Of a stretch of DNA of 39,735 nt, positions 10,250-16,191 are shown piece by piece. How positions within the stretch are numbered: the stretch's first letter is position 1; every line of letters starts with the position of its first letter. Position numbers and translations under genes: made by a program. Below the pieces are notes generated by a model. The model saw only the letters and a program-made list of their open reading frames with translations. It searched no databases and was not told where the DNA came from. The DNA is from a virus, in IMG/VR virus record IMGVR_UViG_3300034072_000840, positions 1 through 39,735 of that record. One strand, 5' to 3'.

Positions 10250-11293
10250 TCAGGAGCTGAAGATGGCGCCCAGCAAGTCGTTGCTGAGTTCCGTTGCTCC
10301 TGGTTCGAGACCGAGCCTGTCTTTCTGCGTGCAAGCGTGAAAAGCGGGGCAATAAGCACACGCCTTGGGCTCACCTGGAATGGTGACGATCACGCCCTTA
10401 CCGCCCTTCTCGGCCTGGAACTTGCGAGCCTCGTTGAGGTCATCGAAGTTCTTGGTCGAACGGGCATTAGGATCCTTGGCTTTTACCGGATCGGAAAAGA
10501 ACTTGAACTTGGGCGATGAGCGCCAGAGCTCTTCGTCCGTGCATTCCGGGATCTCGGATTCCGGTGCATCCTTGTAGCGTTCGATCAGGAGCAGCCGGCT
10601 ACGAATCCAGCTCTCTGTCTCCTTCTCGGAAGTTAGAGGAATGTCCTTGTACTCTACACGCTTCTGAGGATAGGCCGGGTTCGTCTTCACCATAGACTTC
10701 TGCCAGTCAGTGAAGATGAAATTGATCCGGATGTAATCCTCTTCGATCTTGTCCTTGTGGAGCCAGCGGTAGATGCTTCCCTGACGGGAATAATCATCAT
10801 CTTTGGTTCCCTTGATCCAGGACCAGACAGAGGTGGACTTGAAGTCCTGAACGATGCCTTCGGCAACCATGTCGAACTTGCCACCGATAATGTAGGTGGT
10901 GCCATTCACTTCGATTTCCCGGAAACCTCGTTGCTCGAAGTAAACCGGGATGATGTCGTTGCTGGCCCTGAGCTGTTCAGGCGACGGATTGACTACGATC
11001 CGATCGATGATGTCCTTGCTGTAGCCAAGGAGCTTCAAAGAGCTTTCCTTGTTGTTGAGCCAGGCATGTTCGATAGCCGTATGGATGGCATGGCCCATTG
11101 CCCGAGCAATGTACTCGGACACATCAGGGGTCTGCTTTTCCTTGGGCACACGCTTCGACAGAATGAGCTGTCGAGTAGGCTTCATCAGCGAGGTAGCCGA
11201 GACATAGTTCGGCTTGTCGATGTAGTCGTAGTCATCACTCAAAAGCCAGACAGCTAAGGGTAATGACACATCAAGATTGTTAGAAACTCTCAT
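10250..11293 (-). CDS. PD-(D/E)XK nuclease, RecB/Cas4-like, N4 gp42 type
   Basis: 347 residues. Active-site pattern GGKFDMV (Asp141) and VQDFKST (Asp150, Lys152) is that of RecB-family exonucleases. Near the C-terminus CAYCPAFHAC (Cys312, 315, 321) recalls the Fe-S cluster cysteines of Cas4/AddB-type enzymes; a fourth Cys is not obvious. Probably acts on DNA ends during recombination or replication. Its start overlaps the endonuclease stop (TAATG). The first 18 codons are near-duplicated at 11870-11796, so the present 5' end was probably installed along with the HNH gene. Confidence 0.8.
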   Translation of the reverse strand: MRVSNNLDVSLPLAVWLLSDDYDYIDKPNYVSATSLMKPTRQLILSKRVPKEKQTPDVSEYIARAMGHAIHTAIEHAWLNNKESSLKLLGYSKDIIDRIVVNPSPEQLRASNDIIPVYFEQRGFREIEVNGTTYIIGGKFDMVAEGIVQDFKSTSVWSWIKGTKDDDYSRQGSIYRWLHKDKIEEDYIRINFIFTDWQKSMVKTNPAYPQKRVEYKDIPLTSEKETESWIRSRLLLIERYKDAPESEIPECTDEELWRSSPKFKFFSDPVKAKDPNARSTKNFDDLNEARKFQAEKGGKGVIVTIPGEPKACAYCPAFHACTQKDRLGLEPGATELSNDLLGAIFSS

Positions 11294-11799
11294 TAGATGA
11301 GTCCCATCATTCTGTTGGTTTTGGCAAATGGACCGTGAAGATCATTGGCCGCTTTGTCGTACGCAAGTGCAGCAGCAACAGGATCTTTATAGGAACCAAG
11401 CCTAACTTCCTTACGGTTACAAGTTATCTTGGCCACGTAAGAGCCGTGCTTATTTAGCGATACGCCCTTGAAGCCGGACGTATTGTTGCCGCGAACAACA
11501 CCATTGCGATTGTTCTGCATGTGCGTGCAGGGTCTCAGATTGACGATCTTGTTATTGGATCGACAATTGTCCCGGTGGTCGATGCGATCTACCCAGACGC
11601 CATGAGTTATGTACCAAGCTAGGCGGTGACCGTAGTACAGCTTGCCTTCAAATCGGATCTGAAGGTAGCCGCTGGTCTTTGAAATGCTGCCTGCCAGATT
11701 GCCCTCACGAGCACGGGCATTCACATTCCGAAGCCACCGGAACTCTCCGGTGGTCGGGTTGTAGGACAGCGCTTTTACAAGCCTATCGAGGTGACTCAT
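11293..11799 (-). CDS. HNH homing endonuclease with AP2 DNA-binding domain
   Basis: 168 residues from ATG 11799. N-terminal HNH: GEFRWLRNVNARAREGNLAG, GHRLAWYITHGVWVDRIDHRD and NLRPCTHMQNNRN. C-terminal AP2 domain: GFKGVSLNKHGSYVAKITCN, RLGSYKDPVAAALAYDKAA. This HNH-AP2 pair is typical of free-standing phage homing endonucleases. Its ATG overlaps the stop of a 24-codon remnant of the nuclease gene and its stop overlaps the start of the intact nuclease gene, so it is wedged exactly into the 5' end of that gene. Confidence 0.9.
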   Translation of the reverse strand: MSHLDRLVKALSYNPTTGEFRWLRNVNARAREGNLAGSISKTSGYLQIRFEGKLYYGHRLAWYITHGVWVDRIDHRDNCRSNNKIVNLRPCTHMQNNRNGVVRGNNTSGFKGVSLNKHGSYVAKITCNRKEVRLGSYKDPVAAALAYDKAANDLHGPFAKTNRMMGLI

Positions 11800-11870
11800 C
11801 GGAGCCCCTCGTCGTGCAGAAGCCAAACTGCGATCGGTAAGCTGATGTCGAGATTATTGGAGACTCTCAT
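11796..11870 (-). pseudogene. Displaced native 5' end of the gp42-like nuclease gene
   Basis: A 24-codon ORF, MRVSNNLDISLPIAVWLLHD then EGLR and stop. The intact nuclease gene starts MRVSNNLDVSLPLAVWLLSD. Sixteen of the first 18 residues match while the bases differ at many third positions, so these are diverged copies rather than a recent tandem duplication. The ATG overlaps the previous stop (ATGA), keeping the original translational coupling; its stop overlaps the endonuclease ATG. It is the stub left when the HNH gene inserted with a replacement 5' end. Confidence 0.88.
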
Positions 11871-12676: not shown

Positions 12677-13483
12677 TCAGGCAGCCAATCCCGTCTGCTT
12701 GGTTACGTGCTCTTCGATGACATTGAGAATGTCTGCCTCTGTTGCTCCGTTGGGGAGCGTTATCTCTGTCGTCCAGTTGGGGTAGAAGAGACCCAAACTT
12801 CCCCCGAGCTTCACCTGTGGGTGGTAAATCTCAGGATGGTTTTGCCATCTGACGGCATCAACTAGATGAGTGTTGGCATAGACGATAACTTTAATGTCGT
12901 CCTGCATCAAGAAATATCCTGCGTCATGGATTTGAGCACAGGGTTTTATCGACAGTCTGTGAACACTCTTTCGGACTTTGCCCATAAACTCTGAGCCAGC
13001 ACGGGAATTGAGCAGACACCAGCTCTGTCCCAGGGCATTGCCAGCAGTCCTCCCTTCAGCTTCAGCAGCTTGTGGGGTGGCCTTGGCTCCACGAATAACC
13101 TGAGCCAGCAGAGGTGTGCGGAGTCTCAGGCCAAAAGCGATGGTGATGTATCCATCCTTGGTAGCCTGATCGAGCTTGTCCGAGACCCATTGGTCACTGA
13201 CCGCATAGAGCTCGTGATACCTTGCCTCGATTGTTTTAGCCTTCTCTTCCGAGAAGCCACAGTTCTTGACGAGTGTGGACCATGTTCCCTGATAAGTATG
13301 CTTTTCCTGTGCCCCCTCTCAATAAATGAGAGGGGGCTAGCAGGTTAGAGCAAAGGTAGGGGCTTTGCTCTCTTGTCGATCCTTAGCGTAGAGAAATTGA
13401 ACAGAGTTGATCCGGGCAACATTGTGCTCGGAGACCGAGACCTCCGATACAGATTCGATTGGTTCAGTAATTCTTAGCACCAT
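12677..13483 (-). CDS. DNA polymerase (family A), C-terminal piece, interrupted by a 48-nt gap with stops
   Basis: Starts at ATG 13483 (MVLRITEPIESVSE), inside the 3' end of the HNH gene. It reads 47 codons to FALT within RQESKAPTFALT, the O-helix/motif B of family A polymerases, then meets TGC TAG. The chain resumes 48 nt later as YQGTWSTLVKNCGF, the normal continuation of motif B, and runs in the same frame to TAA at 12677. With the gap removed the product is 252 residues and contains motif B (Arg36, Lys40) and motif C QIHDAGYF (His170, Asp171). The downstream part has no usable start codon before Met at 12985, well past motif B. Expression therefore needs a recoding event, most simply ribosomal bypass of 13342-13295. 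It would pair with the N-terminal piece, which holds motif A and the exonuclease. Confidence 0.85.
13295..13342 (-). other. Candidate translational bypass element (48-nt coding gap)
   Basis: Minus-strand order: Thr codon ACC (13345-13343), TGC, TAG stop, a 10-bp hairpin, in-frame TGA in the hairpin loop/arm, AGGA (13308-13305), 7 nt, then Thr codon ACT (13297-13295) and TAT where the polymerase resumes. A tRNA-Thr with GGU anticodon reads both ACC and ACU, so peptidyl-tRNA could leave ACC and land on ACU. The T4 gene 60 bypass has the same parts: matched take-off and landing codons, adjacent UAG, hairpin, upstream SD-like signal, about 46 codons into the gene. The function is inferred; the interruption and its parts are seen. 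Confidence 0.8.
13311..13337 (-). repeat. Hairpin inside the coding gap
   Basis: Perfect 10-bp inverted repeat gccccctctc / gagagggggc with a 7-nt loop. The stem starts at the last base of the UAG stop in the mRNA. No U-tract follows, so it is not a normal terminator. Confidence 0.9.
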
Positions 13484-14051
13484 TTATGCGCGCTCTCTTA
13501 ATTCGTTGATCCATAAGTGAGTTATCTAGCTCGTTTTCCAGCCCAGTTTCCCTAGCTAACTTACGAAGCTTCACAGACAGAAATGGAACCTTGTAAGGCA
13601 CCCGGAGGCAAACATCTGCGTATGATTCACCGGAGATGACATCATTTAGGCAGTCCAAAAACTCCTGCCTCGTGAGCTTGTTTGTGTATGTTCTAAGGCC
13701 TGTTCTTATGGCGTGAAGTTTATTGCCTAAACTGTCTACCCATTCCAAATTGCCTACGTCGTTATTTTGCCGGTTGCCATCCTTATGGTTTACTTCCGGC
13801 AATTGCTTAGGATTGGGAATATAAGCTTGGGCGACTAAGCGATGAACGTAGAAAGATGTGCCCTTATTTTCTTTCCAGAGGTTAACCTGGAGGTATCGCG
13901 TATCTTTATGTGGGTAGGGAGTAAGCAACTTGCCCCACTTAGGGATGGCTACCTTGTCGGCCCCAATCACTACACGATCTAATGATCTCACCTGACCGCA
14001 TTGGCTAACTTCGTAGGAACCCTCATAACCCAGAATTGGAGAGAAGTGCAT
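13464..14051 (-). CDS. HNH homing endonuclease (NUMOD4-HNH) splitting the DNA polymerase gene
   Basis: 195 residues. N-terminal NUMOD4: FSPILGYEGSYEVSQCGQVR. HNH core: YVHRLVAQAYIPNPKQLPEV followed by NHKDGNRQNNDVGNLEWVD. A DNA-binding tail follows (TRQEFLDCLNDVISGESYAD). The ATG overlaps the last 29 bases of the polymerase N-terminal piece, with GGAG 9 nt upstream; the stop lies 17 nt inside the C-terminal piece. No room remains on either side for a group I intron core, so this is an intron-less insertion that splits a gene, like mobA in T4 and mobE in Aeromonas phage Aeh1. Confidence 0.92.
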   Translation of the reverse strand: MHFSPILGYEGSYEVSQCGQVRSLDRVVIGADKVAIPKWGKLLTPYPHKDTRYLQVNLWKENKGTSFYVHRLVAQAYIPNPKQLPEVNHKDGNRQNNDVGNLEWVDSLGNKLHAIRTGLRTYTNKLTRQEFLDCLNDVISGESYADVCLRVPYKVPFLSVKLRKLARETGLENELDNSLMDQRIKRARINGAKNY

Positions 14052-16191
14052 ACAACTCTGCTCCTGTCACTTCATTGCCTAGATAATTTATAACTTCATT
14101 GGCATGAAAATAGACATTCTTGCCGCCAACTTTCGCAATGTAACAAGGAACATTGTCTTGAGCAATCTCAATGTCAGGCATTGAGTCGCTAAAGTATGAT
14201 TGAGCACGAAGGCAGTGGCCGTCGAACCCGTCAGTATAGACGCGCAATTTAGCAGGGTCTTTGGTGGTCAGAGCTGAGATGCGATCCTCAAGGGAGTCAA
14301 AATCCAGTCCTGCAAAGATCCAGCCATCGGGTGCCTCGAAGCAGCTTTTGATGAGCTTGCCCAGGCTGAGCTTGTTGCCTTTCATGTACGGCGCCAGAAT
14401 GGCCCCATAGAGCTTCATGAGATACTCGGAGATGAGCATCATCACATTGGCCGGCAGGTTCTGGAGATTAGGCCCAGAGGAGCTTAGACGGCCGCTCTTG
14501 GTTCCTCCAAGATTGAAATTGCCAAAGAGGTAATGCCAGCCATCCCGACCTTGTTGAGCACTCTTCAGGGATGGGATAAAGTCGGTGATGATCTTGTTGA
14601 CCGCCTTGAAGTCGATCAGTGCTCCAAGGAATTCCAGAGTATCTGCGTCCTTGGTGTGATTCCTCAGATTCTTCAGCGTGTCGCCGTCTGTCGACGGCTG
14701 CCCCGCATCAGTCAGACCCAGGACAGGGAGTTCCAGTACCTCGAACAGGAGTTCTTGGAGCTGGGGGTTGGAGTTCGGATTGAACTCCACGGCCTGGGTC
14801 TCGTCATCCTCGAATGCGATCTGCTTCTTTTTCAAAGCCTCGTTACGCTTGGCTACGTGCTTATGACGCAGCAGATGGTTGTAGTGCTGGATGACCTTGG
14901 AATGCCCCAAGGTCTGAAGCGCTGAGCCCTCGATGTCATTGAGGATCTGTTCGACCTTCAGGACCTGGTTCATGTTCACCGGCATGCCAGTGAGCTGCAT
15001 CTGGATAATATCCAGCATTGCAGGCTGGAACAGGTCCCGGTAAACCAGCAACTGCTGGTCTGCTACGAGAGTGTCCCAGTGCTTTTCATAAACATGCCAT
15101 GTGGAAAGGCTGTCGACGAGATTGTATTTGAGCAGCTCAGGTTGAGGGATCCGGCGGATATCCTTGATTTCATCCTGAGCATAATTGCCCGCAAAGTCCT
15201 GAGCCTGATCTTTCAGGCTCAGCTTATTGCCAGCACATGAGTTGGTTGCGAGGTAGGTGATGAGCTTGGTGCAATCCCAACCACCACTATCGCCCAACAT
15301 GATATCCATGCCGTAGAGCAGACCTTCCTGATCCAGGAGATGCTCCATGAAGAGCTGATAGATCAGGACGTAAACGTCATAGCCGATGTTGTGCCATTTG
15401 AACTCTACGCCGAGCTCACGGGCCACGATGAAGAATTCCTTCAACATTGCCCGACGGTAAGCATGAGGCACCTGAATGCCGTGCTGGCCCAGCTCATTCT
15501 TCTGGTTCGGATCAGCGGGATCGATCGGCAAATAATCTACCGGAAAAGCAATGCCTTCATGCTTGGACCAGGCAAACGAAATAGTGCCGATGCCGGCATC
15601 ATAGTGCTTGAGGCTGAATGCCTCGATATCCGCGGTCAGTGGCTTGCCCTGTTCCAACAGCTTACGAAGCCACTGTTCGATGCCTTTGTCTGTGGTGGGG
15701 TAGGCGGCGAACTTGATAATGTTCTGGCCAGGTACCTTGTAACCACCGGCAATGTGATCGATCAGGGCATTCATTCCCGTGGCGATCTTGGCTGTCACTG
15801 CTTCGGGATCATAGAATACCGCGGCATAGTTGGGCACATAGACAACCTTGAAGTCGCCCAGAGCACAGTCCACGACGTAGCCGAGGTTGGCTTCCACTTT
15901 GGGAAGCTTGGTTAGGACCTTGAAATAGTCAGCGTCTGCAACCAGCAGGTATTTGGTGCCCAGATCCGTCAGGGTTGGTTCGAGCTCTTCAGCAAACCAT
16001 GCCTTGATCTCTCCGGCCGACGGCTTCTTTTTACCTTCGGACTTGAAGGTCTCCACCACGAGAAGGTCATTCTCGTTGAATGGGTATGGATCGGTGTAGT
16101 GCTTGCGAATGTCGTCCTTGCGAATCTTGGGAACCAGTAGGACCACAGGATAGTGGGTGAGTTCGGGATCTGCGAACGACAGGTAACGCAT
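14023..16191 (-). CDS. DNA polymerase (family A), N-terminal piece with 3'-5' exonuclease and motif A
   Basis: 722 residues, N4 gp39 type. Exonuclease motifs: TADIEAF (Asp188, Glu190), HNIGYD near 275, and YNLVDSLSTWHVYEK near 385. Polymerase start: GTKSGRLSSSGPNLQNLP near 565 and motif A FAGLDFDSLEDR (Asp630). The protein stops about 60 residues later, in VTGAELYALLSNSGL, before motif B, because the HNH gene interrupts it. Motifs B and C are on the separate piece at 12677-13483, so the catalytic centre must be assembled from two chains. ATG 16191 overlaps the preceding TAA. Confidence 0.9.
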   Translation of the reverse strand: MRYLSFADPELTHYPVVLLVPKIRKDDIRKHYTDPYPFNENDLLVVETFKSEGKKKPSAGEIKAWFAEELEPTLTDLGTKYLLVADADYFKVLTKLPKVEANLGYVVDCALGDFKVVYVPNYAAVFYDPEAVTAKIATGMNALIDHIAGGYKVPGQNIIKFAAYPTTDKGIEQWLRKLLEQGKPLTADIEAFSLKHYDAGIGTISFAWSKHEGIAFPVDYLPIDPADPNQKNELGQHGIQVPHAYRRAMLKEFFIVARELGVEFKWHNIGYDVYVLIYQLFMEHLLDQEGLLYGMDIMLGDSGGWDCTKLITYLATNSCAGNKLSLKDQAQDFAGNYAQDEIKDIRRIPQPELLKYNLVDSLSTWHVYEKHWDTLVADQQLLVYRDLFQPAMLDIIQMQLTGMPVNMNQVLKVEQILNDIEGSALQTLGHSKVIQHYNHLLRHKHVAKRNEALKKKQIAFEDDETQAVEFNPNSNPQLQELLFEVLELPVLGLTDAGQPSTDGDTLKNLRNHTKDADTLEFLGALIDFKAVNKIITDFIPSLKSAQQGRDGWHYLFGNFNLGGTKSGRLSSSGPNLQNLPANVMMLISEYLMKLYGAILAPYMKGNKLSLGKLIKSCFEAPDGWIFAGLDFDSLEDRISALTTKDPAKLRVYTDGFDGHCLRAQSYFSDSMPDIEIAQDNVPCYIAKVGGKNVYFHANEVINYLGNEVTGAELYALLSNSGL

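Follow-up and report, generated by a model that had tools for sequence, protein, structure and literature searches.

The window analysed here is the complete 39,735-base IMG/VR record IMGVR_UViG_3300034072_000840, which is part of an N4-like (Schitoviridae) phage according to homology and gene order against N4-like phages. On its minus strand, the DNA polymerase gene is present as an N-piece and a C-piece with an HNH endonuclease gene between them, and the C-piece is broken by a 48-nucleotide (nt) coding gap in motif B, the fingers O-helix of family-A polymerases (Table 1). A sequence-only reading of the window had described this anatomy, with the HNH gene overlapping both neighbours and the gap following codon 47 of the C-piece, and every coordinate of it was confirmed. 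The HNH open reading frame shares 29 bp with the N-piece and 20 bp with the C-piece. Both domains of its product score above their curated cut-offs (PF13392, HNH_3, 33.7 bits with a cut-off of 24.8; PF07463, NUMOD4, 31.3 bits with a cut-off of 23.4), and an EVNHKDG...NLEW block is conserved in nine homologues. The last ~48 residues of the N-piece form an extension without counterpart in the unsplit relative L002 (L-numbers denote loci), and homology to L002 stops at 14192.

Up to the break, the C-piece reads MVLRITEP...RQESKAPTFALT (47 codons). The last of these codons, ACC, is followed by TGC and then by TAG (13339-13337), and the gap contains both TAG and TGA in frame. Reading resumes at ACT TAT CAG GGA (13297 on), which gives TYQGTW..., and the frame is then open for 205 codons from the Tyr codon to 12677. 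Most of the gap folds into a hairpin of -29.5 kcal/mol (z-score -6.5) that none of 200 shuffled sequences equalled in stability. A rho-independent terminator was ruled out, as the hairpin lacks a U-run and is located within a coding gene. Nor is the gap a product of chance or an assembly slip, because other phages have four different hairpin inserts at this codon, of which one recurs unchanged in two separate metagenome contigs (L341/L342).

Table 1. Features of the window, motif-B alleles of related loci and loci with cargo between the polymerase pieces. Positions refer to the window unless a locus is named.
Feature	Position	Strand	Description
Polymerase N-piece	14023..16191	-	family A, N4-like; 722 aa; DNA_pol_A match; runs through motif A
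NUMOD4-HNH_3 homing endonuclease gene	13464..14051	-	195 aa; overlaps both polymerase pieces
C-piece, first part	13343..13483	-	ATG at 13483; 47 codons, MVLRITEP...SKAPTFALT; ends in takeoff codon ACC (13343-13345)
Coding gap, 48 nt	13295..13342	-	TGC TAG ... hairpin ... landing codon ACT (13295-13297); length counts landing ACT
Takeoff stem-loop	13306..13344	-	lower stem CCUG/CAGG (13341-13344 with 13306-13309); upper 11-bp stem (13327-13337 with 13311-13321); loop UUUAU
C-piece, second part	12677..13294	-	YQGTWSTLVK... to polymerase end; ratio of nonsynonymous to synonymous differences (pN/pS) 0.04 vs L002
Mobile block	13298..14191	-	N-piece tail, HNH gene, C-piece start and gap; absent from L002, which is 94-96% identical
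Hairpin allele	L341/L342 (= L213/L214)		ACT CTC TGA CCCCCCCTAG-TAAA-CTAGGGGGGG GATGAGAGAAATGA ACT TAC; 47 nt; identical allele in both contigs
Hairpin allele	L333		ACG CTC TGA ... TTCG loop ... ACC TAT; 45 nt
Hairpin allele	L403		ACG ATA TAA ... TTCG loop ... ACG TAT; 41 nt
Hairpin allele	L323		ACT GGA TTA ... ACA TAT; 40 nt
Short allele	L439		ACG TA ACA TAT; stop TAA; Thr to Thr over 5 nt
Short allele	L365		CTC AGG TAA CTT ACC; Leu to Leu over 9 nt
Short allele	L332 and L350 (= L057)		AC(C/T) TAGCT TAT; 5-nt insert
+1 allele	L355 (= L216)		TTT C GCA; one extra C after TTT
+1 allele	L050		one extra C after TTT, as in L355
+1 allele	L035		one extra T
Short allele	L019		CCT TAG CTT ACG; 6-nt allele
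Cargo-slot loci	L324:2764-3501, L327:3029-3505, L330:3044-3508, L336:2993-3508, L347, L348, L337, L340; L326:2008-2448, L329:2956-3501, L338:3284-3484		

Interruptions of motif B in related phages

Relatives were found by scanning viral contigs with polymerase, C-piece and hairpin patterns. Four further hairpin inserts, of 47, 45, 41 and 40 nt, stand at the same motif-B Thr codon. All five hairpin inserts are flanked by Thr codons (ACC/ACT, ACT/ACT, ACG/ACC, ACT/ACA and ACG/ACG; identical triplets only in L341 and L403), and in every hairpin allele a Thr-to-Thr hop exactly restores wild-type motif B. The five also follow a common plan. A Thr codon is followed by a short lower stem, a small internal loop, a C-rich/G-rich upper stem of 9-11 bp with a 4-5-nt loop (UUCG in two, as in T4), an unpaired spacer and the second Thr codon. 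The lower stem begins in or just after the takeoff codon, and z-scores against dinucleotide shuffles range from -3.4 to -6.6. Pairwise identity of the inserts is 53-69%, and the loop-proximal base pairs differ in type.

In four of the five hairpin alleles the first stop lies one codon past the takeoff codon (TAG, TGA, TGA, TAA), and L323 has no zero-frame stop until far downstream of it. In-frame stops also stand directly before the landing Thr codon in L341 (TGA ACT) and L323 (TAA ACA), so decoding must resume at that Thr. The gap lengths of 48, 47, 45, 41 and 40 nt cover all three frames. Stop readthrough of the in-frame 48-nt insert was therefore ruled out, because the sister inserts of 47, 41 and 40 nt are not multiples of three and change the frame. 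The phage with the 41-nt gap is AT-rich and has five clustered tRNA genes (L403:37-497, minus strand).

Shorter interruptions of motif B were found as well (Table 1). From their sequences they are consistent with stop-hops or +1 shifts, and are less certain than the hairpin alleles. A stop adjoins the takeoff codon in the short variants L439, L332 and L350. The same +1 insertion, together with the bases TTTCGCACTTACCTATCAGGG, occurs at L050:940-990 and L355:3610-3660 in polymerases that are split at different places; recombination of an immune site or convergence could account for it. L320 and L322, flagged by a script as interrupted, have merely a different motif (HFSQQYQG) and no break.

Joint inheritance of endonuclease and interruption

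All loci were reduced to 160 distinct polymerases, and membership of the HNH clade of the window was defined as more than 150 bits with the profile of that clade. Twelve polymerases carry a clade member and motif B is interrupted in all 12, by a hairpin (5), a short stop-hop-like insert (4), a +1 insertion (1) or an intron (2). Weaker HNH matches accompany three interrupted (L019, L035, L050) and five intact polymerases, Pylas included. None of the 140 polymerases without any HNH gene is interrupted, though 24 of them are split. Comparison of the clade (12/12) with all others (3/148) gives a Fisher p of 1e-15, which is nominal, as the phages are related. Linked inheritance of the endonuclease and the gap, suggested in the sequence-only reading, is thus borne out by these counts and by three block acquisitions, and relatives that carry a gap without an endonuclease, which would have spoken against it, were not seen among the 140.

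The block acquisitions are visible in three pairs of phages. The window and L002 are 94-96% identical as far as -898 (counted from the Tyr codon), and this identity resumes at the landing codon, -3; a block of ~895 bp stands in place of about 110 bp of L002. L341 and L383 are 96.4% identical up to -873 and 96.0% identical from -3, and the corresponding values for L323 and L330 are 99.2% up to -699 and 99.0% from -3. In this last pair, the recipient allele was already split and held a Tad2-like gene. The 3' border of the block is the landing codon in all three pairs, and endonuclease and gap arrive as one block. In the HNH tree, L323 (hairpin) is sister to L355 (+1) with a support of 1.0, and the two TAGCT alleles of 5 nt form a group with two hairpin alleles (0.92). 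The insert types interleave in this tree; one kind of insert has thus given way to another without loss of the interruption.

Downstream of the gap, the three pairs have 22/3, 18/5 and 6/0 synonymous/nonsynonymous differences (46/8 in total; pN/pS about 0.05). This synonymous excess points to purifying selection on the codons past the gap and indicates that this part is still read. In all 13 interrupted alleles examined, 197-207 codons are open after the Tyr codon. Each tested genome has one family-A polymerase, as two fragments, in records that may be incomplete.

Homologues of the endonuclease also occur in introns at motif B. In Acinetobacter phage nACB1 (OQ032511, L162), an HNH protein 65% identical to that of the window is encoded inside a group I intron of the polymerase gene. 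The two halves of this intron match RF00028 with 41 and 30.5 bits (E 8e-9 and 1e-5), which is below the curated cut-off of 50, and it lies within the Leu codon of FALT, 5 nt upstream of the bypass point. L512 (CALVEJ010000102.1) has a 54% identical HNH protein in an intron-like element at motif B, an arrangement assigned by reading, unlike the covariance match of nACB1. This locus is on a 73-kb contig of an N4-like phage that was assigned to a Candidatus Gastranaerophilales metagenome-assembled genome, and its polymerase has both a split and an interruption of motif B. Intron-borne endonucleases cut near the insertion site of their intron. Motif B is therefore the likely target of the HNH clade, as far as the positions of its members tell.

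Some further features of these loci may be mentioned. A second HNH gene (HNH_3 plus AP2) lies at 11293-11826 (minus strand) of the window, downstream of the C-piece. At L082:843-1415 (IMGVR 3300028388_004293), an HNH gene of the window's clade is seemingly joined in frame with the C-terminal polymerase region, which lacks motif B and the codons after it; a deletion derivative or an assembly junction might explain this. The cassette brings short tails for both polymerase pieces, ...VYFHANEVINYLGNEVTGAELYALL at the end of the N-piece (window 14026-14190, minus strand) and MVLRITEPIESVSEVS as codons 1-22 of the C-piece, which are alike across split alleles and may dock the two pieces together. 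When the N-terminal region of the C-piece was searched against isolates, matches began only at residue 20, that is, without the extension. In endonuclease-free split polymerases, the slot between the pieces often holds anti-defence genes (Table 1), Tad2-like (PF11195) in many; other cargo includes the Acb2/Tad1 hairpin domain (PF24729) and RyR. It seems that a former homing site has been turned into a cargo slot for counter-defence genes.

Proposed mechanism and rival explanations

We have good confidence that the locus is a homing cassette, in which the insert destroys the enzyme's own motif-B target and translational bypassing hides the insert, as proposed for T4 mobA and gene 60. The HNH endonuclease would recognise motif B (KAPTFALTYQG), a conserved part of the phage polymerase gene. 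The cassette would pair the endonuclease gene, whose insertion point in the polymerase lies about 110 bp upstream of the site, with the insert, which sits exactly inside the site and would make its own chromosome immune to cutting. During co-infection, an uninterrupted polymerase gene would be cut and repaired from the cassette allele, and endonuclease and insert would be copied together. Left in the message as read, the insert would destroy the polymerase, but, judging from the sequence, the ribosome most likely jumps over the 48-nt stop-containing hairpin. It would pause on the Thr codon ACC that ends FALT, where the base of a stable stem-loop lies and a stop follows after one codon. The peptidyl-tRNA would then detach, the hairpin would be skipped, and the tRNA would re-pair at the Thr codon ACT. 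Translation restarting at TAT would yield the exact wild-type FALTYQG.

Several points weigh against this explanation. The takeoff and landing codons of the window are synonymous (ACC/ACT) and not identical, the stop is one codon past the takeoff codon and not adjacent as in T4, and L323 has no nearby stop. Shine-Dalgarno-like help before the landing site is weak, and a well-matched landing codon is missing from the 5-nt TAGCT alleles (L332, L350) and from the 6-nt allele of L019. The synonymous excess downstream of the gap may partly predate the arrival of the cassette. Finally, no isolate with the gap was found, and all bypass alleles are metagenomic. Of 478 phage records matching the motif-B region, 468 cover at least 80% in one place, and all of the 60 matches listed are single pieces.

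Repair at an endonuclease site could leave frame-breaking indels as scars, and the +1, 5- and 6-nt alleles resemble such scars. The insert might then have inactivated the polymerase gene, as a pseudogene or an assembly error, in a phage that is dead or uses another polymerase. This is highly improbable in view of the long open frames after the break in all 13 interrupted alleles, the low pN/pS, the lack of a second family-A polymerase in the tested genomes, and a hairpin plan that recurs in five divergent genomes, with one allele identical in two contigs. Removal of the insert from RNA, as a mini-intron or by hairpin cleavage and RNA repair, would likewise give an intact message, and the introns of nACB1 and L512 with their homologous HNH genes are a precedent at motif B. 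We nevertheless hold it to be very unlikely, since the 37-45 nt between the codons are far below the size of a self-splicing intron and the inserts have, beyond the Thr codons, no common splice-site-like sequence. No Rfam match to an intron or a group I core was obtained in the window region or in the other hairpin alleles; the insert was accordingly rejected as an intron remnant, though it may descend from an intron allele.

The polymerase gene is already in two pieces, and a third could be imagined, with a 47-residue peptide and a re-initiated C-terminal part following the N-piece. That would place a break inside the O-helix. In the window, L403 and L439, no in-frame ATG, GTG or TTG occurs within the first 50 codons past the gap, and in-frame stops lie close upstream; re-initiation therefore cannot supply motif B, and this arrangement is barely conceivable. 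Endonuclease and insert might instead be linked merely through the split gene, motif B not being the target and the insert having another role, such as lowering the polymerase level. Cutting at motif B is a prediction, and inefficient bypassing would indeed lower polymerase. Such a linkage has little probability, for motif B is intact in all 24 split polymerases without an HNH gene, many of which hold other cargo such as Tad2-like genes, and it is the very site marked by intron-borne homologues. Sister endonucleases, moreover, differ in insert type (L323, L355) and have kept the interruption.

Relation to known systems and meaning

In T4, the HNH gene mobA is associated with the gene 39/60 split, and matched codons, an adjacent stop, the nascent peptide and the protein L9 have been described for the bypass, which was called unique among T4-like phages (PMC5009743, PMC3014915, PMC2988022). 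The T4 record, folded for comparison, has the takeoff codon GGA at codon 46 of gene 60, a 50-nt gap and a takeoff stem with a UUCG loop. As in T4 gene 39/mobA/gene 60 (PMC5009743, PMC3014915), an HNH gene here splits an essential replication gene, and the downstream piece has a stop-containing insert of ~50 nt with matched takeoff and landing codons, a takeoff codon within a stem-loop and a proposed role in immunity. Unlike T4, the host gene is a Schitoviridae family-A DNA polymerase, the hop is from Thr to Thr instead of Gly to Gly, one codon separates takeoff and stop, and a larger C/G-rich stem fills most of the gap. Furthermore, the HNH gene is full-length, whereas T4 mobA is annotated as defective, and there are many alleles with alternative inserts (+1, 5 nt, 9 nt, group I intron). 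It is very likely that the same evolutionary logic operates here in another gene and phage family. Two details of the sequence-only reading need correction. The endonuclease is not of a different family from that of T4, because MobA is also an HNH enzyme (PMC2988022, PMC3014915). The similarity of the 47-codon distance to the 46 codons of T4 is incidental, because the distance follows from the point at which the gene is divided; C-pieces that have no gap likewise begin 45-47 codons ahead of the Tyr codon.

Phage nACB1 and L512 share HNH clade, gene and motif B with the window but have as insert an intron in the Leu codon, presumably spliced from RNA. The N4-like polymerase of Vibrio phages JA1 and VchO139-I is also split by an HNH gene (PMC3670811), as are those of Klebsiella phage Pylas and E. 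coli phages U1G, phi G17 and PGN829.1; these differ in their HNH types, and motif B is uninterrupted in those examined. The Magnusiomyces capitatus mitochondrial byps and a Streptomyces phage Hau3 candidate are likewise short untranslated inserts skipped by ribosomes, but no endonuclease partner has been described for them and they follow another codon logic (PMC5009743). In mycobacteriophage Corndog, an HNH gene lies beside a tape-measure gene that needs unusual translation, possibly bypassing, but no gap within a conserved motif and no hairpin element have been described (PMC4351075). No prior report of such bypassing in N4-like phages was found among the open-access papers searched.

On balance, we lean towards a broader view, in which a single lineage of homing endonucleases gains protection from a break in the most conserved motif of the polymerase, and this break is hidden interchangeably, by a group I intron, a long hairpin bypass, a 5-9-nt stop-hop or a +1 frameshift. 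If this is true, immunity to the endonuclease would be paid for with recoding signals that evolve again and again, and T4 gene 60 would be no curiosity but a member of a general class. Efficient long ribosome bypassing has so far been essentially a one-phage phenomenon (T4 gene 60). The new alleles add a second type, represented by five different natural sequences for which ungapped sister genomes can serve as controls, and both the rules of bypassing and the evolution of bypass elements as homing-endonuclease immunity become directly testable. Annotation gains as well, as genes of this kind look broken to gene callers.

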